The position numbers were made by a program, and so were the translations under genes. The notes beneath the pieces were generated by a model. It saw only the letters and a list, made by a program, of their open reading frames with translations. It did no database searches and was not told the DNA's origin. A stretch of DNA of 64,000 nt from Arthrobacter sp. ERGS1:01 (GTDB lineage: Bacteria; Actinomycetota; Actinomycetes; Actinomycetales; Micrococcaceae): the NCBI RefSeq assembly GCF_001281315.1, contig NZ_CP012479.1, positions 2,170,001 to 2,234,000 of the forward strand, given 5' to 3'. This document shows, piece by piece, positions 3,330-59,774 of this stretch; the first letter of the stretch is position 1, and each line of letters begins with the position of its first letter.

Positions 3330-3784
3330 TCAGCGTGGCCTCGTGCAATATTTTCGTTCCCTTGAAAGGGTTTGCATCCGGCGAACCTTGAAATCCTAGA
3401 TCCACCGATCACGAGGAGACCTCCGCAGGGCGGACCGGCGTCGCTCAAATAATTTACTTCGTTTTGGAATCTAAGGCCAATGCGCAGATGACGGGGCGAA
3501 TCATCGCGTATCCATCTCTGGGCCAGAAATATGCCCTATCCAATCAGTGATGCTTTCACAGGGGTAAGCCCGGCATCCGTCAATGCACCGGATACATGCA
3601 GCACGGCCAACCGCTTTGCAAAGGCGCGACCTCACACGGCCCAACGCGTTTCGCCTGCACTTGTTGCAAGTCATCGAATCCTCTTGTTTTTGCCTTGGCA
3701 CCCTCTTAGGCTGTGCTGAAAAGGCCCGAATCGATCAAGTGTCATCAGTTCCGATGGCACTCCACCTTAGTTCAGGAGTCTTCC
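3330..3784. other. Intergenic region upstream of the AbgT gene
   Basis: About 450 bases with no supported gene. A minus-strand open frame at 3501-3701 is Cys/Arg-rich and lacks a ribosome binding site. The segment probably carries the promoter of the AbgT/aminopeptidase pair, but I cannot name a convincing -35/-10 pair. Confidence 0.4.
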
Positions 3785-5461
3785 GTGTCATCAAATGGGG
3801 CAAGTAGCGCGGCTAAATCACCAGGCACCAGCCAAGGTAGTGAATCCGGGCGATTCCTGAATTCGATTGAACGTTTGGGAAACAAGATTCCCAACCCAAC
3901 CATCATGTTCGTATACCTCATTGCACTTGTCGCGATTTTGTCGGCAATCCTGTCGTGGGCCAACGTCAAAGTCACCGACAAGGTCATGACGCCGGTCCCC
4001 ACAGAACAGCTCCAACATCTCAACGACGCACTCGGTGGGACGATTGTGCCTTTTGATACGGCGACCGGCATGGCGGTGACACTTCCTGAATATACGGTGA
4101 GCCAGCAAACATTCGCCGTCCAGAACCTGCTCTCCGCCGACGGCCTGCGCGTCTTCTTCTCCTCCTTCGTGGACAACTTTGCGGCTTTCAGCGTCGTTGC
4201 CGTAGTCCTTGTCGCCATGGCCGGTGTCGGCGTCGCCGAGCATGCGGGCCTCATGGCGGCCCTCATCCGCAAGATCGTGAAGGTGGCCCCGCGCTGGTCG
4301 CTCGCTTTCATCTTGATCTTCGTTGGGGTGCTGTCCTCGGTGGCCTCCGACGCCGGGTACCTGATCTTGATACCCCTCTCGGCCGCGGCATTCTTGTCGG
4401 TCGGACGGCATCCGTTGGCCGGCATGGCTGCGGCCTTCGCGGGCGTTGGTGCCATTTTTGGGGTCAATCTCCTGATCACCCCTTCTGACTCAATGATTAC
4501 CGAGATCACCAACGAGGCTTTGGGAAACATCGGTGCGCAACCGCTCTCCGTGACCGCCAACTTCTACTTCAGCATCGTCTCCTCGATCGTTTTGGCCTTG
4601 GTGGCCGTGCTGGTCACGGTGAGGATCGTCGAGCCCCGGCTGGGTAAATACGAGATGGCCGACCCACTCGCGGCAGATTCCGGGGAGCAGATTGATGCGG
4701 CGGCCGAATCCCGCGGCCTCAAATTCGCTCTCTGGGCCTTCGTCGTCGTCGTCATCGGTGTGTTGGCGATCTCGCTGCCGCCGGGAGCACCACTGCGTGA
4801 CACCGAAACGGGACAATTGATCGGCCCCACACCCTTCATGGCAAGTTTGATCTTCATCATCTCGCTGGCATTTCTGATCTGCGGGATCTTTTACGGCATA
4901 GGCGCCAAAACACTCCGCGGTGGCGACGAAGTCGTGGGGGCAATTGCAAAGACGTTTGGCAGCCTGGGCGGATTGCTCATCATGTTCTTGATGATCGCCC
5001 AGTTCATTGCCTTGTTCAATTGGACCAACCTGCCCACAATTGCCGCCGTCGAGGCCGCCCAACTTCTCGAACGGGCCAGCATCCCGGCCGTGTTGCTACT
5101 GATCGCTTTTATCTTGGTGATTTTCATACTGGACATCATCCTTCCCGGCCTGGTACCAAAATGGGCGATTTTCGCACCGATATTCCTGCCCATCTTTGCT
5201 TCACTCAATGTCGCCCCCCAAACATTACTGGCCGCCTACCGGGTGGGTGACTCGCCCATGAACGTGCTTACCCCGCTGATGGTCTATATGCCCTTTATCG
5301 TCACAATTGCCCAACGCTACAAGAAGGACGCCGGAATCGGCACGGTGATTGCCCTCATGGTCCCGTACACACTGTGGATCCTGGTTGCTTGGGTCGTCCT
5401 CTTCGCCGCCTGGTTCCTGCTTGGCATTCCGTGGGGTCCCGGCGCCCCGGTGAACATGTAA
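3785..5461 (+). CDS. AbgT-family transporter
   Basis: A 558-residue membrane transporter of the AbgT family. E. coli AbgT takes up p-aminobenzoyl-glutamate, while other members export sulfonamides, so the direction is not settled by sequence. Typical features are the N-terminal cytoplasmic stretch, helix 1 with NPTIMFVYLIALV, the SDAGYLILIPLSAAAF motif, GVNLLITPSD, and near the end YRVGDSPMNVLTPLMVYMPF. I chose the GTG at 3785 because an AGGAG element lies 8-9 bases upstream; an upstream in-frame ATG at 3713 has no such signal. It is followed after 29 bases by a leucyl aminopeptidase, suggesting uptake and hydrolysis of a peptide-like substrate. Confidence 0.9.
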   Translation: MSSNGASSAAKSPGTSQGSESGRFLNSIERLGNKIPNPTIMFVYLIALVAILSAILSWANVKVTDKVMTPVPTEQLQHLNDALGGTIVPFDTATGMAVTLPEYTVSQQTFAVQNLLSADGLRVFFSSFVDNFAAFSVVAVVLVAMAGVGVAEHAGLMAALIRKIVKVAPRWSLAFILIFVGVLSSVASDAGYLILIPLSAAAFLSVGRHPLAGMAAAFAGVGAIFGVNLLITPSDSMITEITNEALGNIGAQPLSVTANFYFSIVSSIVLALVAVLVTVRIVEPRLGKYEMADPLAADSGEQIDAAAESRGLKFALWAFVVVVIGVLAISLPPGAPLRDTETGQLIGPTPFMASLIFIISLAFLICGIFYGIGAKTLRGGDEVVGAIAKTFGSLGGLLIMFLMIAQFIALFNWTNLPTIAAVEAAQLLERASIPAVLLLIAFILVIFILDIILPGLVPKWAIFAPIFLPIFASLNVAPQTLLAAYRVGDSPMNVLTPLMVYMPFIVTIAQRYKKDAGIGTVIALMVPYTLWILVAWVVLFAAWFLLGIPWGPGAPVNM

Positions 5462-8108: not shown

Positions 8109-8589
8109 TGGGACATGGGGACTTACAGACTGCAAAAACCGGCATCAACCTTGATACCCGCCAAGCGGCTGACCCTGCCTCTGCGGCCTGCACCCCGGTG
8201 AGGGTAATCGCCAACGAGTGACGGCAATTTGCTCCCGATCAATCCGACGGTTCCGTTATGGGTGGTAGCCACCCAACACCCACCGGCGCGAGGCAACGGA
8301 GGTCAGGGCTCGGCTGTGTCCGCGAGTAATGTGCGGTCGAACCCGTGTCTCCGTTGCCTCACGCCTTCCACCCTGATGCCTGGGCCTTGTAGCTTCAGCA
8401 GGGGTCGAGTCCAGCCCTGGTCTCGTCGTTCGCTGCGAAACTTGGGCTGTGGCGGGGGATGCGATCCTTCCCTTCAGGACCTCATGCTGACCTGAAAGGA
8501 GAGAAGACATCCCCCACGCTTAAAGAGTCCCGAACAGACAAATCATGACGCAACCAGTCCACGCTCCCTTGGGATGGGACAGCTGCATC
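8109..8589. other. Intergenic stretch
   Basis: Nearly 500 bases between the orphan ORF and the end of the pilus-linked gene set. I see no supported gene, terminator or repeat. Confidence 0.4.
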
Positions 8590-42156: not shown

Positions 42157-42926
42157 ACGCCGCCGCGCAGTGGCGGGCCGCCCTGGCCGTGGAATGGACC
42201 AAGTTCCGCGCCGCCCCCGTCACACTCGTGACCAGTGCATTGCTCGTGTGCGGCCTGCTGCTGATTTCGCTGGCATCCGTGCTGGCCGTGGGCGGTTCAG
42301 GCGCGTTCGCGGCAAAGGCTGCAACCATCAGCACCGACCGCGGCTGGACCGGCCTGTTCGACGGCGCCACCCAAGTCAGCGCCGTGGCAAGCCTGCTCGG
42401 CTTCGGCGTGGTCATCGGGTGGATGTTCGGGCGGGAATTCACCGACGGCACCGCGACCGCCCTGTTTGGCATCCCCGTGTCCCGACCGGCCATCGCCGCC
42501 GCCAAGTTCACCATCATCGCGGCTTGGATCGGCACCATGGCGTTGGCCCTGACAGCCGGAGTGCTGGCCGCCGGCTGGCTCCTCGGCTTCCACGCACCCG
42601 CGGCGAACGTGGCGGCCCTCGCCGGCCGGCTCCTGCTGGTGACCTTGCTGACGGGACTTTTGGCATTGCCGTGCGCCTGCGTCGCAACGGTGGGGCGCGG
42701 TTACCTGGCGGCAATCGGCGCCGTCACCGCCGTCGTCGCGCTGGCCCAGGTGGCGGTGATCACGGGCATCGGGGGCTGGTTTCCCTTCGCCGCACCGGGG
42801 CTGTGGGCGGCGGCCGGCGGCGCTGCCCTGGGTGCCACGGCGGTGCTGCAATTGCTGCTGGCGCTGCCGGTTGCAGCCCTCGCCCTGTGGCTGACGCTGC
42901 GGATGTGGCGGCGGTTGACTCTGTGA
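42153..42926 (+). CDS. ABC transporter permease
   Basis: 257 residues, six membrane segments (for example LVTSALLVCGLLLISLASVL, LLGFGVVIGWMFGREFTDGT with the GREF-type motif common in ABC-2 permeases of the BcrB/YhaP group). GTG start at 42153 overlaps the ATPase stop (GTGA). Last gene of the TetR operon. Confidence 0.88.
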   Translation: MNAAAQWRAALAVEWTKFRAAPVTLVTSALLVCGLLLISLASVLAVGGSGAFAAKAATISTDRGWTGLFDGATQVSAVASLLGFGVVIGWMFGREFTDGTATALFGIPVSRPAIAAAKFTIIAAWIGTMALALTAGVLAAGWLLGFHAPAANVAALAGRLLLVTLLTGLLALPCACVATVGRGYLAAIGAVTAVVALAQVAVITGIGGWFPFAAPGLWAAAGGAALGATAVLQLLLALPVAALALWLTLRMWRRLTL

Positions 42927-42982
42927 ACGAGCCTGCCAACCGAGCTTCCCATGCCGGCTGTTCGGTGTCATTGGCTCCGCAT

Positions 42983-43011
42983 TTGACGGGCGCGCCCGGA
43001 AGGGTTACGTT
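42983..43011 (+). promoter_or_regulatory. Sigma-A-type promoter of the M-box transcript
   Basis: TTGACG (42983-42988), a 17-base spacer and TACGTT (43006-43011). The predicted transcript start, near 43018, falls just before the 5' strand of the M-box P1 stem at 43024. Spacing and position fit together well. Confidence 0.7.
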
Positions 43012-43023
43012 CGTCTTGTTGCA

Positions 43024-43183
43024 ACACCTTGTTCGGTGAGGCTTCTGCATGGACACAGGCCACTGACCTTCCCTGTCGAAAGACACCCCAGGTCAGGACA
43101 GGTCTCCCCGGATTAAGGGGTGACCCCAAGTGGCTGCCCCCAGGGCTACGCCGTGCAGTGCCAAAGCTCTGACGAGGAGGTGT
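43024..43183 (+). ncRNA. M-box (ykoK-type) magnesium riboswitch
   Basis: The segment matches the M-box consensus along its length: GGTGAGGCT (43035-43043), the ATGGA-AGGC block, AAAGACACC (43079-43087), GGTCAGGACAGG, a CCGG-TTAAGG-GGTGA block, GTGGCTG, and the diagnostic GTGCAGTGCCAAAGCTCT (43153-43170) followed by GACGAGGAGGT. ACACCT (43024-43029) pairs with AGGTGT (43178-43183) as P1. M-boxes bind Mg2+ and turn off Mg2+ transporter genes in Firmicutes and some Actinobacteria. Here the downstream unit is an ABC transporter. A T6 run at 43201-43206 follows a GC-rich stretch and may be the terminator; the expression platform is not proven. Confidence 0.9.
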
Positions 43184-43191
43184 TCGCCGCC

Positions 43192-43214
43192 GGCAGGCCC
43201 TTTTTTGCCCTGCC
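43192..43214 (+). terminator. Possible expression-platform hairpin after the M-box
   Basis: GGCAGG (43192-43197) and CCTGCC (43209-43214) can pair around a loop that includes T6 (43201-43206). Alternatively GGCAG pairs with CTGCC (43134-43138) within the aptamer, which would put the T6 run directly after a stem as in an intrinsic terminator. The choice between these foldings may be the Mg2+ switch. Confidence 0.45.
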
Positions 43215-43313
43215 TTGGCGCTCCCCCTGCGTTGCCTCGCCGACATGACAAAACTGACATGACGAACGCGCCGCGGCATGGACCGTGGCACTGACGCTAA
43301 GGAGGTGAGGGTT

Positions 43314-43385
43314 TTGAAACCTGGCCCGCATTCGCGCTACACATCATCCACCCCCACTTCCCGCAGCCTCCCCTCGACGCCGTAG
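43314..43385 (+). CDS. 23-codon proline-rich leader peptide between M-box and ABC genes
   Basis: A TTG start at 43314 with an extended AAGGAGGTGA Shine-Dalgarno (43299-43308) at 8-base spacing encodes Met-Lys-Pro-Gly-Pro, a Ser/Thr/Arg-rich middle and a final Pro before TAG at 43383. Five of 23 residues are Pro (3, 5, 14, 20, 23). It lies after the riboswitch and 45 bases before the permease start. Pro-rich leaders such as Salmonella MgtL act in Mg2+ and proline sensing, which makes a regulatory role plausible. No other product can be given. Confidence 0.6.
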   Translation: MKPGPHSRYTSSTPTSRSLPSTP

Positions 43386-43402
43386 ACGGCCATTGAAGGC
43401 TG

Positions 43403-43428
43403 ACGGGGCTTTCCCGTGCGGAGTTTTT
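43403..43428 (+). terminator. Attenuator-like hairpin before the permease start
   Basis: ACGGG-gcttt-CCCGT (43403-43417) is followed by GCGGAG and TTTTT up to 43428. It sits between the leader peptide and the permease ATG and overlaps the edge of the ribosome binding site, so ribosome position on the leader could affect it. Weak as an intrinsic terminator. Confidence 0.4.
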
Positions 43429-43429
43429 C

Positions 43430-45169
43430 ATGCCTGCCATTCGTCCCCTTCCCGGCGCCGGAATCCTGCGGCGCCCCACCCTGAACGGGGTTGACCTCCT
43501 TGTTGGCGGCGCCGTCCTGGTGCTGCTGTTCGTGCTCGTGCGCCTCGGCCCGGGGCTGAACGCCCCCTTCAACATTGCCAACGCCCCGGCCGCAATCTCC
43601 ACCGACCCGTCCCACCTTCCCTACTACGCGGCCCGGTCCCTGCTGCGGATGTTCATTGCCCTGGCCGCCAGCGTGGTGTTCACCTTTGTCTACGCCATTG
43701 CCGCCGCACGCCTGCGCCGTGCCGAGAAGGTGCTGTTACCGCTGCTGGACATCCTGCAGTCGGTGCCCATCCTGGGCTTCCTGTCCGTCACCGTGACCGG
43801 TTTCATCGCCTTGTTTCCGCATTCCACGCTGGGCCTGGAATGCGCCGCAATTTTCGCCATCTTCACCTCCCAAGCCTGGAACATGACCTTCGCGTTCTAC
43901 TACGCGCTGGTCAGCCAGCCCAGGGAACTGGACGAGGCGGCCCGGCTGATGCGCCTGACCAAATGGCAGCGCTTCTGGAAACTCGATGTGCCGGCCGGCA
44001 TGATCCCGCTCGTGTGGAACGGCATGATGAGCTTTGGCGGCGGCTGGTTCTTCCTGGCCGCCTCGGAGGCCATCTCCGTCAACAACCACGACTATGCCCT
44101 GCCCGGCGTGGGAGCCTATGTGGCCGCCGCCGTCGAACAAGGCCAGCTGGGCCGGGTCTGGTGGGCCATCCTGGCCATGGCGATCATGGTCATCGGCGTG
44201 AACTTCCTGTTTTGGCGTCCCCTGGTGGCCTGGGCCGAGAAGTTCCGGCAGGAGGACACCGTCGCCGTCGAACGTCCGCGCAGCGTGGTCCTTGACATGC
44301 TGCGCCGGTCCTCGATCCCGCACGTAATCTCCCGCGGACTCCGGCCCGTTGGCCGGCTCCTGGATTCGGGAACGCGGCCCTTCGGGCTGGCCGAGCACCC
44401 GCTCCACACCCCCGCCCTGGTGAGGCGCGGCGGGGACGCGGCGTTCGCCGTCGTCGTTGGCGCCATGGTTCTCTACGGCGTCTACGAAGCGTTCACCTTC
44501 GTCCAGGGCACGGCGGGACTTGGCGCCTTTGCGGAGGCGTTCGGGCTGGGCACGCTCACCTTTGCCCGGGTCCTGGTGATCCTGCTCGCGGCCACCATCG
44601 TGTGGGTGCCCGTGGGCGTGTGGATCGGCATGAACCCGAAGATCAGCCGGCTGGCCCAACCCATCGTGCAGCTGCTGGCCAGTTTCCCGGCGAACTTCCT
44701 CTTCCCGTTCGCCATCGCGTTCTTCGTGTTCTCCGGCATCTCGCTGAACTACGGCGGGATCCTGTTGATGTCGTTGGGCGCCCAGTGGTACATCCTCTTC
44801 AACGTCATCGCCGGGGCCAGCGCCATCCCCAACGATTTGCGCCTGGCCATGGACAGTCTGCGGGTTTCGCGGTGGCAGCGGTGGCGGAAGCTGATCCTGC
44901 CGGCGATCTTCCCGTCCTACGTCACGGGCGGCATCACGGCAGCCGGCGGGGCCTGGAATGCGGCGATCGTCGCCGAAATCGTCACCTACAACCACCAGAC
45001 GCTGACCGCCTCGGGACTGGGCACCTATATCACCGAGGCCACCACCACCGGTGACTTCGGCAAGGTCCTGGTGGGCGTCATCGTCATGTCCGTCTACGTG
45101 GTCGGCCTCAACCGGCTCTTCTGGCGCAGGCTGTACGAGCTCGCCGAAACCCGCTTCTCGCTTAGCTGA
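43430..45169 (+). CDS. M-box-controlled ABC permease with two fused transmembrane domains
   Basis: 579 residues, two BPD_transp_1 permease domains in one chain. Each has an EAA loop: [20 protein letters not shown] near 170 and [20 protein letters not shown] near 470. Sequence is closest in pattern to the NitT/TauT (nitrate/sulfonate/bicarbonate) permease group, normally two separate chains. CGGAG precedes the ATG at 43430. It is followed by its ATPase after 20 bases; no periplasmic-type binding protein lies nearby. Regulation by an M-box suggests Mg2+ itself or a Mg2+-linked solute as substrate; this is inference. Confidence 0.9.
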
Positions 45170-45189
45170 TTCCCCTCCAGGAGGAACCC

Positions 45190-46539
45190 ATGAACACCAC
45201 CCCCAAAACCCTTATCAACGTCAGCAACGTCGGCATGGACTTCGCCACCGACGGCGGCCACCTCACAGTGCTCGACGACGTCAGCCTGCGCGTCAACGAA
45301 GGCGAAATCGTGGCTCTGCTGGGACGCAGCGGCTCGGGCAAGAGCACCCTGCTGCGCTGCATCGCCGGCCTCGCCTCCCCCACGTCCGGAACCGTCTCCT
45401 ACAAGGGCGAGATCCTCAACGGCGCCAACCCCGGCGTCGCCATGGTCTTCCAGTCCTTCGCGCTCCTGCCCTGGCTCACCGTCCAGGAAAACGTGGAGCT
45501 CGGCCTGCAGGCGCGCGGCGTACCGTCGGCCGAGCGCCGCGAACGGGCCCTGCGCGCCATCGACATGATCGGCCTGGACGGCTTTGAAACCGCCTACCCC
45601 AAGGAGCTCTCCGGCGGCATGCGCCAACGGGTGGGCTTCGCCCGGGCACTGGTGGTGGAGCCGGACCTGCTGCTCATGGACGAGCCGTTCTCCGCCCTGG
45701 ACGTGCTCACCAGCGAGAACCTGCGTGGTGAGCTGATCCGGCTGTGGAATGACGGCACCTTCCCCACGCGCAGCGCCCTGATCGTCACCCACAACATCGA
45801 GGAGGCCATCCAATTGGCGGACCGGGTGCTGGTGCTGGATTCAAACCCGGGCCGCATCAAGGCCGAGCTGTCGATCGAGCTGGCCCATCCCCGCGACCGC
45901 CGCAGCCCCGCCTTCGAGGCCTTGGTGGACCAGGTCTACGGGATCCTGACCGGCCAGGCGTCCGCCGCCCGCACCACCACCCCGGCCACGCCCTTCGGCG
46001 CCGAGCCCACGGAGATTCAGGCGCCCCTGCCCAAGGCCAGCACGGGCGAGCTCGGCGGCTTGTTGGAGCTCCTCAACGCCGGCGGCGGCAACGAGGGCCT
46101 GGCCGAGATCGCCGACCAGCTCCGCTACGAACTCGATGACCTGCTGCCTTTGGTTGACGCCGCGCAACTGCTCAAGCTTGCCTACCCGCAGGACGGCCGG
46201 CTCCGCTTGAGTGAACAGGGGCGCCGTTATGCGGCCGCGGATGTGCTGCGCGCCAAGGAGCAGTTTGCCACGCTGGCCGTGGAGCAGGCGCCGCTGGTGC
46301 GCAGCATTGTCCGCCAGCTTCGGCACAGCGACGACGGCGCCCTGCGGTCCGAGACCGTGCTCGCCGAGCTGCGCCGCGGCTACAGCGACGACGACGCCCG
46401 GGCGCAGCTGGACACCGCCATCGACTGGGGCCGCTATGCCGAACTGTACGAGTACGACGCCGATTCCGAGCGCCTGCTGCTGCCCACCCACCCGGACGCC
46501 GCCATGGCCGGGCAGCCCGAGCAACCGGCGGCCCGCTAG
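45190..46539 (+). CDS. ABC ATP-binding protein with C-terminal AAA-associated domain
   Basis: 449 residues. Residues 1-255 are a NitT/TauT-type ATPase: Walker [15 protein letters not shown], signature [16 protein letters not shown], Walker [14 protein letters not shown]. Residues 285-430 form the AAA-associated C-terminal domain (winged-helix-like; [40 protein letters not shown]). This domain may be a regulatory sensor. AGGAGGA precedes the ATG. It follows the double permease as an operon. A hairpin follows the stop. Confidence 0.92.
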
Positions 46540-46548
46540 CCCGGCTTC

Positions 46549-46574
46549 GGCCGCCACTCGCCGGAATGGCGGCC
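46549..46574. terminator. Terminator of the M-box ABC operon
   Basis: GGCCGCC (46549-46555) and GGCGGCC (46568-46574) pair, followed by TTT. A second hairpin, GGGACC-aaaca-GGTCCC (46584-46600), follows directly. Confidence 0.6.
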
Positions 46575-46603
46575 TTTCAACGCGGGACCAAACAGGTCCC
46601 ACG

Positions 46604-46644
46604 GCCCGGAACCGGAGTAAAATGTGAGAGATCCGGTTCCGGGC
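46604..46644. promoter_or_regulatory. 13-base perfect inverted repeat enclosing a TAAAAT box
   Basis: GCCCGGAACCGGA (46604-46616) and TCCGGTTCCGGGC (46632-46644) are perfect complements separated by 15 bases that contain TAAAAT (46618-46623), a good -10 element. It lies 36 bases upstream of the small membrane protein gene. It may be an operator around the promoter or an mRNA hairpin. Confidence 0.5.
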
Positions 46645-46679
46645 ACCACCACGCCCAAGGGATGAGCCGGGGAGGTGCG

Positions 46680-47054
46680 ATGACTCTGAATACGCCACAG
46701 CAGGGACCCGCCGGGCCGGGCCGATCCGACCACGCCCCCGGCATGCGCACCCTGGCGATCCCGCACATGAAGGCCCACGGCTGGGCGCCCGCGGAAATCT
46801 CCGCGATCACCCACGTTCCTCCGGCCCTGGTGGAACTGATCCCGGCACAACCCTGCACCGCGCACGGGGCAACGGTGCCGCCGCCGTCCCCAGCCCGACC
46901 CAGCTGGTACAGGCGCCACAGGAAGTTCGTGATCTGGGCAGCCACCGCGGCATTCCTCGTTGCCGCCACGGCCGTCAGCATCGTGCTGAGGGCCCCGCTG
47001 CTCCCGTTGGCCGCCATGGTGATTGGCGGCTGGCTCGGTCCGCGACGGATCTAG
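46680..47054 (+). CDS. Small membrane protein of unknown function
   Basis: About 124 residues. N-terminal cytoplasmic part with HMKAHGWAPAEISAITHVPP, a Pro-rich linker and a C-terminal hydrophobic region with one or two spans (WAATAAFLVAATAVSIVL, LLPLAAMVIGGWLG). GGGGAGG precedes ATG 46680. Not recognised. The helix-turn-helix-like AEISAITHVPPALVELI might be DNA- or protein-binding. A long inverted repeat precedes it. Confidence 0.65.
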   Translation: MTLNTPQQGPAGPGRSDHAPGMRTLAIPHMKAHGWAPAEISAITHVPPALVELIPAQPCTAHGATVPPPSPARPSWYRRHRKFVIWAATAAFLVAATAVSIVLRAPLLPLAAMVIGGWLGPRRI

Positions 47055-47111: not shown

Positions 47112-47591
47112 TCAGGCGCTGCGCGGACAAGACCGTGCGCTACGCATGGCCCAGGCGGCCAGTGCGGCAACCACAAGTTCCAAAGCGATCACGCCCAGCA
47201 TGGCTCCCGTGTGGGAGGCCGGCGCGTTCGCCGCCATCCCCATCGAGTCCATCCCCATCGATCCCATGCCGCCGTGCTGCTGCCCTGCCATGGCGCCCGG
47301 TGCCAGCAGCAGTGTGGTGTGCACGGCGACCATTACCAGGGCCATGGCAAAGAGCAGTTGCACGGCCCGGTCGTGGCCGCGCCGCCACACGGCAACGGCG
47401 CACGGGAGGCACGCCGCAGCCATGAGGACCATCAACGCGCTTTCCCACGGCATCGACCGGTGCGCCCACGCCATCCACAGGTGTGCGACGACGGAGGCGG
47501 CCGCGACTGTGGCACACGCCCTGACGCGGACCGTCCCGCCGATCGTCCCCGGCGTCCGGGCGCCCGTCACCTCAGCACTGGCAGTGGTCAT
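47112..47591 (-). CDS. Met/His-rich membrane protein coupled to the copper amine oxidase
   Basis: About 159 residues with four hydrophobic segments. Between segments 3 and 4 is a loop with [16 protein letters not shown], a Met/His-rich composition known to bind Cu(I)/Cu(II). The first 90 residues resemble DUF5134-type membrane proteins. Its ATG (47591) lies inside the last codons of the amine oxidase gene (20-base overlap), so it is translationally coupled. A role in copper delivery or sensing for the oxidase is a reasonable inference. Confidence 0.7.
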
Positions 47592-49509
47592 CACCGGGCG
47601 CCCCGTCGTGATGGCCCGCTCCGGCCTTGATGCCGGCGGGTACGTCCAGCACCGGGCTGCGGTCAAAGAATCCCTCGGGGCGCAGCTTGAACCCGACGGT
47701 GTCCACGGGCATGATGGGCCAGTCCTCCATGCGGGGGAAGTGGGTCAGGCCGAAGGTGTGCCACACGACGATGTCCTCGCCGTCGATGGCGCGGTCTCCG
47801 GCGATGAAGGCCGGCAGTCCGGCCACGCCGCTGTTTTGGTTGACGAAGTCGCCCGTGGGGTAGCGCTCGTCCTCGGCGAACCGGGTCACCCACAGGTCCT
47901 TCGTGGCGAAGGCCGCCCGCCGGGCCACGGACGACGCCGGATCGGCCAACAGCATGGGCTGGCCTTGGGGGTGGAGCTTGTACGCCACCGGTTCGCCCAA
48001 TCGGTTCAGCGACTCGGGGTTGGAGATCACCCAGGTCCGGCCGCTGCGCATGTCGGCCTCACGGACGGCCTCCTGCTCGGTGGCCAGAACCGTACGCCGG
48101 CGGGTGAAGGCGTTGCCGCGCTCGTTGCCGGGGCCCATGGGAACCCGCACCACGTCCTCCTCCTCGACCCGGTTGGCGAATCCATCCACCGCCATGTCCA
48201 GGCGGGCGCCGAACAGGTGCTGGTGGTAGGGCGCACCGAGCCCGGGCGCCAGCTCGGACGCGAAGGGGTAGCCCTTTCCGGGGTGTGCGCTGGTGAAGAC
48301 GACGCCGGTCGCCTTGGCCTCGAATTCGATCGTGCCGTCCAGGTAGAGGTACCAGTAGAAGCCGTAGTCGTAATTGCCAATCGTGGTGAAGAAGGAGATC
48401 ACCAGGCGGCGGTTGCGGCGTGTGTAGTCGATGCCCGTCCACAGATCGGAGTGCTTGGCCAGGATGGACCAGTCCTCCTCGTGCATGCAGATGCCGTTGC
48501 GGATCTCGCGCGGATTGCCAAAGGCGTCGCTGATGACAGGGCTCAGGTAGGTGATCTCGCCGAGGCAGTCGCAGCCGAGCTCCAGCGAGTTCGCATATTG
48601 GCCCACCAGGTATTCGCCGGTATCGAAGTAGTTTTGCCAGGACCGCACCGGGGACGGGTCACCGTACGGGACCACCATTTCGGCGATCGAGGCCCGGTTG
48701 ATAATGGGGCGCCGGCGGCCGGCGTCGTCGAACGCAATGTTGCGCAGGACGATCCCTTCGCGGGCGTCGAAGCCGATGTCCAGGCTCCACTTCTCCCATT
48801 CGACGTGGTTGCCGGCCGTCACGGCAAAGCTGGGCCCTTCCGGCTGGGTGATGCTGATGGGCTTTTGGGTTTCCCGCAGCGGGCCCGTCAGTTCCGGGTC
48901 CGTGTAGTTGCCGTGTTCGGCCGGAATCGGGACAGCGCCGAAGTCGATGACGGTGTCGACGGTCTTGCTGACGACGTCGACGTAGGCCACGAGTCCGTCC
49001 ACCGGATGGGCCCAGGGGCTGTCTTCCGGGAAGTCCTGCACAAATGCGAGCCCGCGCAGGATCCGCCTGCCGGATTCCTCCGGGTATTCGAAGACGCCGG
49101 CGGACAACGGGGCAACCCGCACCTTGGCGACGTCCAGGTTCCGCGCTGCGAGGGCCGCAAGCCATTCGGGATGGGTGGACAGGATTTCCTCCACCACCTC
49201 GAATTCCTCCTCCAGGACGGGAAGTTCCCCGGTTTCGGCGGTATTCAGCTGGACGGCGGATTCCACCACGCCCCGGGTCACCGAGACCACCACGTCGCGG
49301 GGCGCGGCACCGGAAACGTCGTGCAGGAAGGCTCGGAAGCGGCGGTCAACCGAGTTCCGGGCGGCGCCCCTCGGCGGGTCGAGCAGGCCGAGGTAGGCGA
49401 TGCGTGCCTGCTCCCCCAGCAGTCCGGCGGCCTGCAGGATGTCCCGGACCGCGGTGATCTCTGCGGCCGTGGCCAGCGAATGGGGTGTGAGGTCGGTGGC
49501 GGCAGTCAT
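47572..49509 (-). CDS. Copper amine oxidase
   Basis: About 645 residues, cytoplasmic (no signal peptide), as in the phenylethylamine and histamine oxidases of Arthrobacter. The TPQ site is in [10 protein letters not shown] (Tyr of NYDY becomes topaquinone). Copper ligands are the His pair in [11 protein letters not shown] and the later His in [13 protein letters not shown]. The catalytic base Asp is in [11 protein letters not shown]. It converts a primary amine to aldehyde, H2O2 and ammonia. Downstream membrane gene is coupled; a TetR gene is divergent; an aldehyde dehydrogenase and permease lie nearby, forming an amine catabolic island. I place the start at 49509; the frame is open to 49584. 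Confidence 0.94.
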
Positions 49510-49530
49510 GGGCGCCCTTCCAGTAGTTTG

Positions 49531-49549
49531 GCGGCCGGTGACCGGCCGC
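49531..49549. promoter_or_regulatory. Perfect 9-1-9 palindrome in the amine oxidase leader
   Basis: GCGGCCGGTGACCGGCCGC, a perfect inverted repeat 22 bases upstream of the amine oxidase start. It could form an mRNA hairpin near the ribosome binding site or be an operator. Confidence 0.5.
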
Positions 49550-49557
49550 ACATTTTT

Positions 49558-49579
49558 TATTCTATGGTTGTAGAGAATA
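49558..49579. promoter_or_regulatory. Candidate operator between amine oxidase and TetR genes
   Basis: TATTCT (49558-49563) and AGAATA (49574-49579) form an inverted repeat with a 10-base centre, inside the only AT-rich patch of the 142-base gap between the divergent genes. The TetR protein encoded next door is the likely ligand. Confidence 0.55.
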
Positions 49580-49651
49580 CTCACACGTAAGATGCATCAC
49601 AAGGGCCTTGCCCATAATTGTTCGCCACACCGGCCCGTCGGGGGAGTCCTA

Positions 49652-54744: not shown

Positions 54745-56349
54745 TCAGGCCGACGCCGTCAGCCGGGTTCCCATGACCGTCATGGCCATGGTCTCCTCGA
54801 GCATCAATTCCGTGAGTTCCCGCAGGAGCCCGTCATGGGCCGGATCGGCGGCAACATTGTGCATTTCATCCGGATCGCTGGTGTGGTCGAAAAGTTCCAC
54901 TATGCGGGTCCCGAAGTACCGGGTCAGGCGGGCCCGGGGCGTCAGAATGGTCCGCATCCGCACCGGTCCCGGCAGGCCGGGCAGCCCGAACGGCTGGTCC
55001 TCCTCGATGATCAGGGCGTCCCTGACCGTCCGCGCCTCCCCTTTCAGGATCGGCGCCAGGGACTTCCCCTGGATGCCGCGGAAGGGTTGGGTGCCGCTGA
55101 GCTCCAGCAATGTAGGGGCCAGGTCGGCGGTGCTGGCTAGGGCATTGCTGCTTGACGGTACAACGCCCGGCGCCTTGATGACCAGGGGCACATTGGTCAG
55201 GGCCCGGTAGTGGGTGAAGTGCTTGAGCATCAGGCCGTGATCGCCCAGCAGGTCCCCGTGGTCACTCGTGAACACAATTATCGTGTCGTCCTCGATCCCG
55301 TGGTCCCGCACGGCAGCGAGGATCCGGCCAATCTGCTCGTCGAGCAAGGTGATCAGCCCGTATTGGGCTGCGGCCGCATGCCGGTACTGGTCCTCGGTCA
55401 CGGCCCACGTCATGGTTGAATCCTGGCCGGGCTCACCCCGATGGTCGGCGAGTGCGCGGATGTGCTCCGGCGAGGCGCCGTGGTCCTGGTTGAATCCCAC
55501 CGGCAGCGGAATGTCCTCGGGACGGTACAGGTCCGAGTACCCCGCCGGCGGGGAAAACGGGTGGTGCGGGTCGGGAAAGGAGACAAACAGGAAGAACGGA
55601 TCGTTCGTGCCGGCCAGCGCCCCGATGCGTTCCACGGCCTTCCCGGCGATGTATGCACTGGGGTGGAGCTCGGCCGGAACGGCGGTTTCATACACCTGGC
55701 TCCAGCCCGGGTATGCGGCCGCCGCATTGGCCGCACCGCCCACGGTCCGCGGATCCAGGCCATGCTCGAGCGCCCAATGCAGGTAGTGGCCGCCGGGGTT
55801 GTCGCCGTGGCCGATCACCAGGTCAACATCCTGGTACCCGTAGTAGTCCTTGGGCATGCGGATGAACGCGGCCTCGTGGTCGGCCCGGTTTTCCCAGCGG
55901 TCCCAACCGGGCTCCCGGTCGAATTCGACGGCGTCCCGGTGGACCTCGCTGAGCAGCAGCGGGTCCGTGGCCTGGATTTCCGTCCGCTGCTCGTCCTCGA
56001 ACGGCCAGCCCATGTTTTGGTGGTGCAGCTTGCCCACGGCGGCCGTGCGGTAGCCGTCGCGCGCCATGCTTCGCACCATGGTGCTGGCGTTCGGGTCCAT
56101 CGTGATGCCGTTGCACCGGGTGCCGTGGGCCGAGGGCCAGCGGCCCGTCAACAGGCTCGCCCGGTTGGGTGAGCAGGTCGGGTTGGCGACGGTGGCCTCG
56201 GAAAAGACAACACCGGCGCCCGCCAGGCGGTCAAGGTTGGGTGTCTTGACCACGGGGTTTCCGGCAAAGCCGAGGTGGTCGGCCCGGAGCTGGTCGGCCA
56301 CGACCACGATGACGTTGGGCCGCCGGCCTTCCGCCTGCGGGGCGCTCAT
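54745..56349 (-). CDS. Sulfatase (formylglycine type)
   Basis: About 534 residues. N-terminal metal site in RRPNVIVVVADQLRADHLGF and the sulfatase signature NPTCSPNRASLLTGR, where Cys59 would be converted to formylglycine (CxPxR). The C-terminal half has the usual GDHGDLLGDHGLMLK motif. No signal peptide, so it is cytoplasmic and cleaves an imported sulfate ester. ATG 56349 overlaps the stop of the upstream ABC ATPase gene (ATGA), so it is part of that operon. Substrate unknown; choline sulfate or aryl sulfates are possible. Confidence 0.93.
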   Translation of the reverse strand: MSAPQAEGRRPNVIVVVADQLRADHLGFAGNPVVKTPNLDRLAGAGVVFSEATVANPTCSPNRASLLTGRWPSAHGTRCNGITMDPNASTMVRSMARDGYRTAAVGKLHHQNMGWPFEDEQRTEIQATDPLLLSEVHRDAVEFDREPGWDRWENRADHEAAFIRMPKDYYGYQDVDLVIGHGDNPGGHYLHWALEHGLDPRTVGGAANAAAAYPGWSQVYETAVPAELHPSAYIAGKAVERIGALAGTNDPFFLFVSFPDPHHPFSPPAGYSDLYRPEDIPLPVGFNQDHGASPEHIRALADHRGEPGQDSTMTWAVTEDQYRHAAAAQYGLITLLDEQIGRILAAVRDHGIEDDTIIVFTSDHGDLLGDHGLMLKHFTHYRALTNVPLVIKAPGVVPSSSNALASTADLAPTLLELSGTQPFRGIQGKSLAPILKGEARTVRDALIIEEDQPFGLPGLPGPVRMRTILTPRARLTRYFGTRIVELFDHTSDPDEMHNVAADPAHDGLLRELTELMLEETMAMTVMGTRLTASA

Positions 56350-57218
56350 GCGGGCCGCTTGATCAGGGACAGCACGTCCGTGCGCTGCTGGGCGAACTGC
56401 GGCAGCGAGCGGGTGGTGATCTGGTCCCGGGGCGAGGGCAGGTCGATGTCGATGGTCTTGAGCACGCGGGCCGGCTTGGATCCCAGCACCACCACCCTGT
56501 CGGAGAGGTAGACGGCCTCGTCGATGTCGTGCGTGACCACCAGGATGGTCATGTTGAAGTCCTTGCGGATCTTCAGGCACAGGTCCTCCAGGTCGAAGCG
56601 GGTCTGCGCGTCGACGGAGGCGAAGGGTTCGTCCATGACAAGGATCTCGGGGCGGTAGGCCAGGGCCCGGGCAATGGCCACACGCTGCTGCATGCCGCCG
56701 GAAAGCTGCCAGGGATATTGCTGTTCGGCATGGGTCAGCCCCACGGCCTCCAGGGCGCTGTCGCAGCGGGCTCGCACCTCGGCGGCCGGCAGCTTCAGGT
56801 GGCGCAGCGGCAGCACCAGGTTCTTGCGGACCGTCAGCCACGGCATCAGGGACCGGTTGTAGTCCTGGAACACCAGGGCCATTTCCGGCGGCGGGCCGTC
56901 GATCACGCGGCCGTCGATGGCGGCGCTTCCGCTGGTGGCCGATTGGAGGCCGGCCAGGCATTTGAGCAGCGTGGTCTTGCCAACGCCGGAGGGGCCCACG
57001 ATGCACACCACCTCACCGGTTTCCACGGTGAAGGTCAGGTCCTCGATGATGACCTTGGCCTTGGCGCCGGTGCCGTAGGACTTGGCCAGGGCCTTCACGT
57101 CCAGGCGCGGATGTTCGCGCTGCTGTCGGGTTGCTTCGTTAGTCATGGCACGTCTCGCTCGCTCGGGGGTGGTCGATGGTGTGGCGCCGCGGAGGGCGGC
57201 TGTGGTCCGGATCGGCAT
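56346..57218 (-). CDS. ABC ATP-binding protein (NitT/TauT type)
   Basis: 290 residues from ATG 57218 (or 266 from ATG 57146). Walker A VGPSGVGKTTLLKC, signature LSGGMQQRVAIARAL, Walker B ILVMDEPFASVDA. The first possible start overlaps the permease stop (TGATG); neither start has a clear ribosome binding site. Works with the two permeases and lipoprotein upstream to import a sulfur compound. Confidence 0.92.
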   Translation of the reverse strand: MPIRTTAALRGATPSTTPERARRAMTNEATRQQREHPRLDVKALAKSYGTGAKAKVIIEDLTFTVETGEVVCIVGPSGVGKTTLLKCLAGLQSATSGSAAIDGRVIDGPPPEMALVFQDYNRSLMPWLTVRKNLVLPLRHLKLPAAEVRARCDSALEAVGLTHAEQQYPWQLSGGMQQRVAIARALAYRPEILVMDEPFASVDAQTRFDLEDLCLKIRKDFNMTILVVTHDIDEAVYLSDRVVVLGSKPARVLKTIDIDLPSPRDQITTRSLPQFAQQRTDVLSLIKRPA

Positions 57219-57991
57219 CAGGCGGCCCTGGCCATCTTGCGTGATCCGATGTACCAGGCGAGCACGCGCCGCCGGCCCAGTTCAAAGATCATGTTGGCGG
57301 CGAAGCCGATGACGCCCAGCAACAGGATGCCGGACCACATGTCGGCAATCATGAAGCTCTGCTGTGCCAGCAGGGTCATGGCCCCGATGCCGTCGGACGG
57401 GCCCAGCATCTCGCTGGCGATCATGACGACGAAGGCCGTTTGGAGGCTCACCTGCATGCCGGAGGCAATCTGCGGGCCAGCCGCGGGCAGGTACACCCGG
57501 GTCAGCCGTTCCGAAACCGTGAGCCGGTAGACACTGCTGACATCCTTCAGCGTGGAGTCCACGCCGCGCAGGCCGTCCACCGTGGCGATCAAGGTGGGGA
57601 ACACCGCGGCCAGGGCGATGCTGACGATCCGCATTTCGATGCCGAAGCCAACCAGCGAGATCAGGATCGGGATCAACGCCACCGCGGGGATGCCCCTGAA
57701 CAGGTGGATCACGGGGTCAACGTAGCCGCGGACCCGGGGCATCATGGCCAGCAGGAATCCCAGCCCGATCCCGGCCACCACGGCGATGGCGTAGCCGATG
57801 AGCAGGTTGCGCAGGCTCAGCAGCACGTCGGAGGAGAAGTGCGCGAAGATCCACAGCTGCTGGAACCGGACAAGGATGGTGGACAGTGGCGGGAAGAAGG
57901 TGTTGGTGGAGCCGGCCGAGACGGCAAACCACAGTCCAAGAAGGATTACGGGGGTGCCAACACCCAAGGCGATATAGAGGGTCTTACGCAT
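57218..57991 (-). CDS. ABC permease (NitT/TauT type), second
   Basis: 257 residues, six spans, EAA loop GVDSTLKDVSSVYRLTVSER. BPD_transp_1 family. It follows the first permease by a few bases and overlaps the ATPase start. Confidence 0.9.
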   Translation of the reverse strand: MRKTLYIALGVGTPVILLGLWFAVSAGSTNTFFPPLSTILVRFQQLWIFAHFSSDVLLSLRNLLIGYAIAVVAGIGLGFLLAMMPRVRGYVDPVIHLFRGIPAVALIPILISLVGFGIEMRIVSIALAAVFPTLIATVDGLRGVDSTLKDVSSVYRLTVSERLTRVYLPAAGPQIASGMQVSLQTAFVVMIASEMLGPSDGIGAMTLLAQQSFMIADMWSGILLLGVIGFAANMIFELGRRRVLAWYIGSRKMARAA

Positions 57992-57994
57992 GGT

Positions 57995-58759
57995 TCACAC
58001 CACCGCTTCCCGGTAGGAGGCATGCCAGTGCAGGAGCTTGCGCTCCGCGGTCCTGGCAAGGCCGATGAAGACGAGGCCCAGCAGTCCAAGGACCAAAACC
58101 AGGGCATAGAGGGAGGGGTAGTCCCCCGCATTCTGGGCCAGCAGGATGCTGTTGCCCAGGCCCGGCCCGCCGCCGAGCAGGCCGGCCACCACCGTCACAA
58201 TCAACGCGACAGGGGCGGCCACCCGCATGGCCGTCCCAATGAATGGCATGGCGCTGGGCAGCACCACCCGGACCAGGATCTCGATGCGCCCCATGCCGTA
58301 GGATCGCGCCGTGTCCTTGGCGACCGGATCGGTGTCGTGGACGCCGTCGACCGTCTGCATGACGATCTGCAACACGCAGCCGAAGAAGACGAGCAGCCAC
58401 GCCATTTTCGCCGTCGGGCCAAGGATCAAAACCAGCAGCGGCAGGATCACGATCGGCGGGACGGGCTTGAGGAATTCCAGCACGGCCAGCGTGGCGTAGC
58501 GGAATGCCGGGAAGCTGCCGATCAGGATGCCGACGAGGATGCCGACGACGGCGGAGCTCACGAGTCCCAGGAGTGCGACGCCGACCGTCTCCGCCAGGGC
58601 CATCCAGAAGTCGCTGCCGGAGACGTCGGTGGCCAGCTTTGCCAGGGTCGCGGTGAACGTCGGCATGGCCGCGCCCCACGGCGTCATCGCCACAAGCTGC
58701 CAGAGCAGGGCGGCACAGGCAAGGCCAATTGCTCCCCTGGTGACTTGAGAGGTTTTCAT
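57995..58759 (-). CDS. ABC permease (NitT/TauT type), first
   Basis: 254 residues, six spans, EAA loop DPVAKDTARSYGMGRIEILV. Pairs with the second permease as a heterodimer. Starts ATG 58759 after the lipoprotein gene by about 30 bases. Confidence 0.9.
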   Translation of the reverse strand: MKTSQVTRGAIGLACAALLWQLVAMTPWGAAMPTFTATLAKLATDVSGSDFWMALAETVGVALLGLVSSAVVGILVGILIGSFPAFRYATLAVLEFLKPVPPIVILPLLVLILGPTAKMAWLLVFFGCVLQIVMQTVDGVHDTDPVAKDTARSYGMGRIEILVRVVLPSAMPFIGTAMRVAAPVALIVTVVAGLLGGGPGLGNSILLAQNAGDYPSLYALVLVLGLLGLVFIGLARTAERKLLHWHASYREAVV

Positions 58760-58790
58760 GGTTGCTACCTTCGGATCCCTTGTCCCGGAG

Positions 58791-59774
58791 TTACTTCAGG
58801 ATGACGTTGTCGAGATTGGCGGGCTTGGCAAGGAAGCCGAGCTGGACCAGCTGGGTGTTGACGCGGGAAAGGTCCTCGGGGGCAACCGCGGTGGGCCAGT
58901 ACGTGACGCCGCCTGCCTGGATGACGGACAGCGGCTGCTTCGTCAGGTCCGCGCCGACCTGCTGGCACTCGGCCAGGTGCGCATCGCAGTAGGCGTTGGC
59001 CTTGTAGATTCCCCGCTGGAAGGCTTCAAGCGACGGGGTTTCGCTTTGCACGGTGGACTGGCCGGCAACGTACAGGCCCACGGCACCTTCCTTGAAGAAG
59101 GCGACACCGGGCGAGGCCAGCAGCGTGGCGCCGTCCGTGACTGCCTCCGAGGTGAACGGCGATACCAGTGCGGCGGCGTCGACCCGGCCGGTCTTCAACG
59201 CCTGCACGGCGGAGGCGAAGTCCAACACCATCCACTTCACCGTGGACGGGTCGCCGCCGGCGTCCTTGATGACCTGGGTGATGGTGACCTCCATCTGCGC
59301 CTTGCGGGCCGGAACGGCGATCGTTTTGCCGTCGAGGTCCTTGGCCGAGGTGATCGAGCTGCCCTTGGGCACGAACAATCCGGTGTCATCGACCTTGCTC
59401 AGGTCCTTGGGCTGCTCGGACGACGGCTCATAGCCGTCGGCCCCGGCGACCACTTTTAGCGGGACGCCCTGGCTGATGGCGTTGATGACGGGAATCGACG
59501 GTGCATAGGTGAGCGCAAGTTGTCCGCTCTGCGCGGCGGCGATTCCGGCCGGCGGGTTTGCCACGGTGGAAACCTGGACGTTGAGCTTTTCATCCTTGAA
59601 AAAGCCTTTGGTGATGCCGATCTGAAGTGCGGCGTCGGAGCTGAGGCCGATCGTGCCGACCTTCAGGGTGGTGACGCCGTTGCTGTCCGACGCCGAACCG
59701 CCCGATCCCGAACTGCACCCGGTCAGGGCCAGGGCAAGCAGACCGGCAACGGCGATGGGTACTCGTAGCTTCAT
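58791..59774 (-). CDS. ABC substrate-binding lipoprotein (SsuA/NrtA type)
   Basis: 327 residues. Lipobox ALTGC at Cys20, then a NMT1/SsuA-like binding domain (LKVGTIGLSSDAALQIGITK, GFFKDEKLNVQVS, KTIAVPARKAQMEVTITQVI). Binds the imported compound at the membrane surface. First gene of the ABC operon after the amidohydrolase gene. Confidence 0.92.
   Translation of the reverse strand: MKLRVPIAVAGLLALALTGCSSGSGGSASDSNGVTTLKVGTIGLSSDAALQIGITKGFFKDEKLNVQVSTVANPPAGIAAAQSGQLALTYAPSIPVINAISQGVPLKVVAGADGYEPSSEQPKDLSKVDDTGLFVPKGSSITSAKDLDGKTIAVPARKAQMEVTITQVIKDAGGDPSTVKWMVLDFASAVQALKTGRVDAAALVSPFTSEAVTDGATLLASPGVAFFKEGAVGLYVAGQSTVQSETPSLEAFQRGIYKANAYCDAHLAECQQVGADLTKQPLSVIQAGGVTYWPTAVAPEDLSRVNTQLVQLGFLAKPANLDNVILK

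Follow-up and report, generated by a model that had tools for sequence, protein, structure and literature searches.

A probable Mg2+ importer of the ABC type behind an M-box riboswitch in Arthrobacter sp. ERGS1:01

The window analysed here, a 64,000-nucleotide stretch of the Arthrobacter sp. ERGS1:01 genome (assembly GCF_001281315.1, contig NZ_CP012479.1, positions 2,170,001 to 2,234,000 of the forward strand), contains an M-box (Mg2+ riboswitch) aptamer followed by two genes for the permease and ATPase of an ATP-binding cassette (ABC) transporter. The aptamer lies at 43021-43186 on the plus strand and matches Rfam family RF00380 over the whole model (positions 1-169 of 169), scoring 144.9 bits against a gathering cut-off of 44 (E 8e-33). 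This strong match bears out a preliminary description of the locus, which had recognised an M-box with all major conserved blocks from the DNA letters and had proposed an Rfam search as a check. An Rfam scan of the window gave the M-box and no other riboswitch, and a search with RF00380 found a single copy in the 4.94-Mb host genome. The gap between aptamer and permease gene is 243 nt. The element exceeds the gathering cut-off and, if the pair behind it is itself a Mg2+ gene, as we infer, also occupies the kind of leader expected of an M-box.

The permease gene (43430-45169, plus strand) encodes a 579-residue protein in which PF00528 (BPD_transp_1) occurs twice, and the ATPase gene (45190-46539, plus strand) encodes a 449-residue protein with PF00005 at residues 28-167, intact Walker A, LSGGM, Walker B, and H-loop motifs, and an AAA_assoc_C domain, PF09821, at residues 306-423 (115.7 bits against a cut-off of 27.6). 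Both the fused permease domains and the AAA-associated C-terminal domain had been noticed before; the end of the stretch, earlier placed at 46574, should be 46539 for the pair itself. BPD_transp_1, ABC_tran, AAA_assoc_C, and a generic AAA_21 P-loop match were the Pfam domains that passed, and none of the Pfam domains of CorA, MgtE, MgtA/B, or Nramp exceeded its cut-off in the pair. PF09821 occurs once in the host genome, where the next permease relatives share 27-28% identity over about one third of the length; the nearest named permease relatives belong to the Micrococcaceae, Mycobacteriales, and Streptomycetaceae. With two transmembrane domains in one chain, a PF09821 winged-helix C-terminus on the ATPase, and no adjoining binding-protein gene, the genes have the make-up of a COG4986/PF09821 pair, COG4986 being presumably the duplicated permease.

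The permease model (predicted local-distance difference test, pLDDT, 79.9) had FbpBC, CmpB, and NrtB as its best PDB matches, and each permease half matches CmpB. Where CmpB and NrtB, both anion permeases, have the arginine of their LRTVP motif, 47 of 47 sequences have Gln110 and, at position 417, 47 of 47 have Ala or Ser; the NCBIfam equivalog cut-offs for ntrB (83.6 vs 209 bits), TauC (59.3 vs 342), and SsuC (20.8 vs 347) were all missed. The C-terminal region of the ATPase (46021-46536, plus strand), modelled alone, is predicted to adopt a tandem winged-helix fold (pLDDT 93.5), which structure comparison tentatively likened to the MarR and DtxR/MntR winged helices; a search of its sequence against solved structures gave no match at E values up to 1. 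Its conserved charges are mostly acidic rather than basic, with Asp or Glu at nine positions in at least 38 of 46 sequences.

The leader in front of the permease gene holds further elements that were identified by reading. The 3' end of the aptamer contains a Shine-Dalgarno-like sequence, GAGGAGGTG (43174-43182, plus strand), which compares with the SD1 of mycobacterial M-box leaders as presented in the consulted part of PMC12810186. A second Shine-Dalgarno sequence, AGGAGG (43300-43305, plus strand), was also listed as a candidate when the M-box leaders were surveyed and precedes a leader open reading frame (ORF) of 23 codons, MKPGPHSRYTSSTPTSRSLPSTP, with a TTG start (43314-43385, plus strand, the stop ending at 43385); the leader ORF of the preliminary description is thus present as a reading frame. 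The promoter of that description fared less well: a tentative TTGACG-17-TACGTT arrangement (42983-43011, plus strand) can be made out by eye, yet a consensus scan covering 42900-46700 listed no promoter-like site, so the promoter is a guess. The same scan listed no terminator-like site on the plus strand, and the folding z-score of the leader (-1.39) is unremarkable.

Linkage between the M-box and this kind of permease recurs. Permease and RF00380 searches were run on three whole-genome samples, which comprised 296 genomes from the phylum, 197 from the family, and 249 from the order of one relative, G288. In the phylum sample, 13 genomes had a permease at E 1e-60 or better. Identity reached at least 57% in seven, of which two (G000 and G288) had an M-box directly upstream; the other six, with permeases at 30-38% identity, contained no M-box at all. 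The family sample yielded five permeases, with an M-box upstream in two (G000 and G365) and elsewhere in the other three, and the order sample yielded seven, with an M-box upstream in four (G288, G692, G669, and G716), four M-boxes elsewhere in G577, and none in G610 and G681. The mgtC gene stands between M-box and permease in G692, G669, and G716. Without double counting, six of the 17 genomes that have a relative at 57% identity or more contain an M-box on the permease strand no more than 1.3 kb upstream, against 0.0026 expected; because the genomes are related, this comparison indicates an order of magnitude and should not be read as a P-value. A riboswitch scan of 17 whole-genome loci gave M-boxes in two, and nothing else passed.

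A scan of named contigs found at least 581 relatives, and the counts of named loci given here concern the best 80: 42 from Actinomycetota, 13 from Cyanobacteriota, 12 from Pseudomonadota, six from Bacillota, four from Acidobacteriota, two from Chloroflexota, and one from Vulcanimicrobiota. Using a covariance model built in this analysis from 25 M-boxes, we found that an M-box precedes the permease in 16 of the 80 loci, which belong to the phyla Actinomycetota, Bacillota, and Chloroflexota. The count of genomes with an M-box before the pair, proposed in the preliminary description, shows a recurrent arrangement, both in whole genomes and among named loci. Eleven cases are actinomycetotal (four Nocardia, three Tsukamurella, two Gardnerella, and two Bifidobacterium), and five of the 38 loci from other phyla add four Bacillota (two Paenibacillus, Pelosinus, and a member of the Alicyclobacillaceae) and one Chloroflexota. 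All 12 M-boxes re-tested with Rfam passed the cut-off; L091, L094, L095, and L109 lay outside the re-test. When the presence of an upstream M-box is mapped on a tree of 101 permeases, it requires 11 changes, compared with 20.2 in shuffles, and none of 500 shuffles was as low; the trait is clustered on the tree, yet it has been repeatedly gained or lost in distant lineages. Homologous pairs behind other riboswitches, which the preliminary description had named as grounds for abandoning its proposal, did not turn up: in 12 loci without an M-box (five Cyanobacteriota, five Pseudomonadota, one Acidobacteriota, and one Actinomycetota), an Rfam scan passed only a tRNA. A fluoride riboswitch match (36.4 bits vs a cut-off of 34) was seen just after the pair, at 8118-8190, in the Bifidobacterium locus L115.

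Genes of the Mg2+ response also recur beside the pair. Neighbours within 5-kb flanks were found by ORF clustering, family scans, and tblastn; mgtC was scanned with Pfam in three loci, the remaining mgtC calls coming from clustering and tblastn. In seven of the 16 M-box loci, namely those of Nocardia and Tsukamurella, mgtC lies between M-box and permease, and on a Tsukamurella plasmid the gene order is M-box, mgtC, permease, ATPase. Among the Actinomycetota, nine further loci have mgtC and/or mgtA/B (L080, where it is on the other strand, L082, L083, L085, L086, L087, L089, L097, and L098, where it is downstream), four have an Nramp gene (L079, L081, L107, and L123), the Nramp gene of L079 having an M-box of its own, and one (L096) has only a corA-like gene, 27% identical to the query. 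Together, 25 of the 42 Actinomycetota loci carry an upstream M-box or nearby mgtC, mgtA/B, Nramp, or corA-like genes. The label "Nramp" is used here in preference to "NrmT-like". Of five P-type ATPases given NCBIfam scores, four passed the Mg-type cut-off, TIGR01524.

Three candidates were left out of these counts or reassigned. The P-type ATPase of the Paenibacillus locus L139, considered as MgtA, is KdpB and was not counted; the Nramp gene of L150 has low identity to the others and was likewise omitted; and L079, from Streptomyces orinoci, was counted for its Nramp gene and not as M-box-linked, its two M-boxes within 5 kb both failing to lie upstream of the permease on its strand. Those two M-boxes flank the pair (4296-4469, minus, and 8233-8406, plus), one facing away and one before the Nramp gene. 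In L139, a corA gene directly precedes the M-box-linked pair, and a c-di-AMP riboswitch beside kdpB, corA, and the M-box of the pair form a K+/Mg2+ cluster within 2 kb (2813-2983, 3388-4335, and 4452-4622).

The preliminary description had stated that no binding-protein gene is near the pair, and this holds. No such gene adjoins it in the window, so the operon does not contain the binding-protein gene of its own that a NitT/TauT system would have. A complete-looking operon of the NitT/TauT type does occur elsewhere in the window (54745-59774, minus), with a gene for an NMT1-type binding protein (58791-59774), permease ORFs of its own (57995-58759 and 57218-57991, minus), and its own ATPase ORF (56346-57218, minus); a longer overlapping ORF reads as sulfatase-like (54745-57006, minus). 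The earlier text had also asked whether homologous pairs always come with a binding protein. None was present among the annotated neighbour families that recur in four or more loci, a scan that left out small antisense-like clusters and covered MgtC, MgtA/B, Nramp, TetR, ribosomal protein L19, signal peptidase, SDR, histidine kinase, RNase HII, phosphoglucose isomerase, and two families without a Pfam match. A tblastn search of the 80 loci with three NMT1 proteins found nothing, a weak negative given that the three miss each other in a control. In the Gardnerella genome G734, both NMT1 genes lie together with two single-domain permease genes and one ATPase gene within 10 kb.

Among 16 genomes bearing the pair, MgtE exceeded its cut-off in two and CorA in 12; the remaining four, all of Gardnerella, gave matches to neither CorA nor MgtE at E 0.001. 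In G734, tblastn with MgtA, MgtC, MgtE, Nramp, and CorA queries from other taxa, covering ~1.54 of ~1.7 Mb and thus leaving about a tenth of the genome outside the search, found nothing but two P-type ATPases. The first of these scored 178 bits against a Mg-type cut-off of 610.75, and the second passed heavy-metal cut-offs and scored 56 for the Mg type.

Control of the pair by Mg2+ is, as far as sequences can indicate, well supported. An M-box stands in front of the pair, and the pair recurs in several phyla beside genes of Mg2+ starvation; it is thus probably an unrecognised kind of Mg2+ importer, as import would be expected of a transporter that is produced when Mg2+ is low. Our preferred reading, which we regard as probable without being secure, is that the pair is an ABC transporter induced at low Mg2+, probably a Mg2+ importer that needs no binding protein and whose activity the acidic tandem winged-helix domain may adjust. 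At low cellular Mg2+, the M-box would be open and the pair made; when Mg2+ is plentiful, the aptamer would close and expression would be switched off. One chain would supply both transmembrane domains, two copies of the ATPase would drive the pump, and Mg2+ would be imported directly, with no binding protein. The acidic C-terminal domain might sense cytoplasmic Mg2+ and slow the pump once enough is inside. Because no intrinsic terminator is seen in the leader in the window, the switch would more likely mask ribosome sites and act with Rho, as described for the mycobacterial pe20 M-box in the part of PMC12810186 that we cite; the leaders from Paenibacillus, by eye, do show hairpins followed by runs of T. 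Of the Mg2+-repressed ABC transporter first proposed for this locus, membership in the Mg2+ regulon is strongly supported by the recurrence of M-boxes and Mg2+ genes; transport, its inward direction, and Mg2+ as the substrate are parts that we infer.

Several observations weigh against this reading. An upstream M-box is missing from 11 of the 17 genomes with close relatives, and four of the eight Bifidobacteriaceae loci (L110, L112, L125, and L131) showed none even at E 0.1. Neither an upstream M-box nor a counted Mg-transport neighbour accompanies 50 of the 80 named loci, and therefore the Mg2+ link applies to part of the family; all 30 loci from Cyanobacteriota, Pseudomonadota, Acidobacteriota, and Vulcanimicrobiota are among those without Mg2+ marks (the Nramp gene of L150 not being counted). 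On a Paraburkholderia plasmid, a VIT-family (Fe/Mn-type) gene directly follows the pair (L312:7903-8592), which hints at Fe or Mn in that lineage. The closest solved relatives, judging by entry titles, transport anions or, together with a binding protein, ferric iron. NMT1-type binding proteins are encoded somewhere in all 16 pair-bearing genomes tested, so an unlinked binding protein might still serve the pair. In the host of the window, two genes exceed the cut-off for CorA and none does so for MgtE, and the search for transporters in Gardnerella covered no CorB/C.

These points bear on other explanations of the locus. MgtC, a frequent operon partner, is not known to transport Mg2+, the VIT-family gene follows one copy, and the other known substrates of the ABC family are organic and inorganic anions, all of which would fit a member of the low-Mg2+ response that moves another solute, such as Mn2+ or another divalent cation, K+, a polyamine, phosphate, or something else. 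However, the marks that recur beside the pair include genes of Mg2+ transport itself (mgtA/B, four of which pass the Mg-type cut-off, CorA-like genes, and an M-boxed Nramp), and Gardnerella has no detected CorA or MgtE; we consider a different solute unlikely, although it deserves to be taken seriously. An ordinary NitT/TauT anion importer with its binding protein encoded elsewhere and an incidental M-box would account for the sequence and fold, nearest to CmpB and NrtB among the solved structures found by sequence, and for the NMT1-type proteins in 16 of 16 genomes. This explanation is improbable in our view, as M-box linkage is far above chance and recurs in distant lineages, the nitrate, taurine, and sulfonate NCBIfam cut-offs are all missed widely, and the two NMT1 genes of G734 and the one in the window adjoin other permease and ATPase genes.

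The pair might also be no pump at all but a membrane regulator under Mg2+ control, such as a sensor whose winged helix binds DNA or a partner. The likeness of the C-terminal domain to MarR and DtxR/MntR would suit such a role, and the part of PMC3688454 that deals with a related system doubts that it is still a transporter. But the catalytic motifs of the ATPase are intact and the conserved charges of the C-terminal domain are mostly acidic, not basic, and we hold this explanation to be very improbable.

A wider look at M-box leaders suggests that short ORFs such as the one in the window are common. Of 99 M-box leaders (among them those of L061, L099, L139, L140, and L164), 72 have a short ORF led by a Shine-Dalgarno sequence behind the aptamer, compared with a mean of 7.6 and a maximum of 13 in shuffles, which leaves 27 leaders without such an ORF. 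A start of the form M-x(0-4)-[DE]-x(0-2)-S, a motif chosen after the peptides had been seen, occurs in 55 of the 99 (shuffles, mean 0.6 and maximum 4). Among 83 candidates, the motif fits 59 in frame and five and seven in the other two frames; by representatives of 47 groups of similar leaders, the ORF is present in 31 and the motif in 20. The leader peptide in the window itself is without the acidic-Ser start that is common behind many other M-boxes. Similar peptide starts are found in Micrococcaceae, Nocardia, Tsukamurella, and Streptomyces, with looser versions (MDSSSRMQ and MDSDSSIM) in Bacillota, and several Mycobacteriales peptides begin MSSGDSP, with Pro at position 7 as in uORF2 of PMC12810186. 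That paper (2026), in the part consulted, calls the leader peptide mycobacteria-specific, but from the sequences compared here its distribution seems to be wider. The short leader ORF could be a second Mg2+-responsive element. Acidic peptide starts could destabilise ribosomes at low Mg2+, an idea of the MgtL type. A gene of another kind adjoins the pair in the window: a copper (primary-amine) oxidase gene at 47572-49584 (minus strand), with PF01179 and NF008559 over cut-off.

CmpBCD and NrtBCD, importers of bicarbonate and nitrate, work with binding proteins; the pair resembles them in the sequence and fold of each permease half, but theirs are single-domain permeases, and their LRTVP arginine is not kept in the pair. 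The preliminary description had not excluded that the system was described before, a doubt that proved justified on two counts. In Bifidobacterium breve UCC2003, an M-box was placed in the expressed 5'-untranslated region of the ABC transporter Bbr_0406-07, whose permease is COG4986 (PMC5746004, 2017), the same arrangement as in the window; as far as the consulted portion of that paper goes, it is a passing mention in one bacterium under general metal homeostasis, with no link to mgtA or mgtC, no argument about a binding protein, and no importer class. In our set, Bbr_0406-07 is represented by two other loci from Bifidobacterium, L115 and L116. The Nrt/Ssu/Tau-like system CLIBASIA_02415/02420 of Ca. 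Liberibacter asiaticus (PMC3688454, 2012) shares the architecture, namely two tandem transmembrane domains in one chain, a PF09821 winged-helix ATPase, and no detected binding protein, and its function was left open; the consulted part of that account reports no Mg2+ link or riboswitch and guesses at an oxoacid ion as substrate.

The reasoning used here has a precedent as well. M-boxes are "almost always" found before corA, mgtE, or mgtA, and NrmT was discovered through an exception, according to the consulted part of PMC4072509 (2014): a Nramp-related transporter class was tied to Mg2+ through upstream M-boxes. NrmT belongs to an unrelated protein family and is backed by experiment, whereas the pair is known here from sequence alone. 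The mycobacterial pe20/rv1535 leaders share the Shine-Dalgarno sequence at the aptamer end, a second Shine-Dalgarno sequence, and a short ORF downstream, but precede other genes (PMC12810186, in part). The portion of PMC9276622 that we consulted lists no ABC class of Mg2+ transporter. In the open-licence literature searched, we recognised no paper that proposes an ABC Mg2+ importer of this family and no account of the breadth of the linkage, the Mg operons, or the Gardnerella case.

The fullest form of the proposal is a new class of ABC Mg2+ importer that works without a binding protein, has an acidic tandem winged-helix Mg2+ sensor on its ATPase, is under M-box control in three phyla, and provides the chief route by which Mg2+ enters Gardnerella; to this combination we give slightly less than even credence. 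If it is true, an ABC-type importer would be a further class of Mg2+ transporter, with relatives in seven phyla among the 80 loci, and a BPD-permease-type importer would function without a binding protein. PF09821 would gain a role, genes now annotated as "nitrate/sulfonate/bicarbonate" transporters would need correction, and the ability of Gardnerella to live without CorA and MgtE would be explained.

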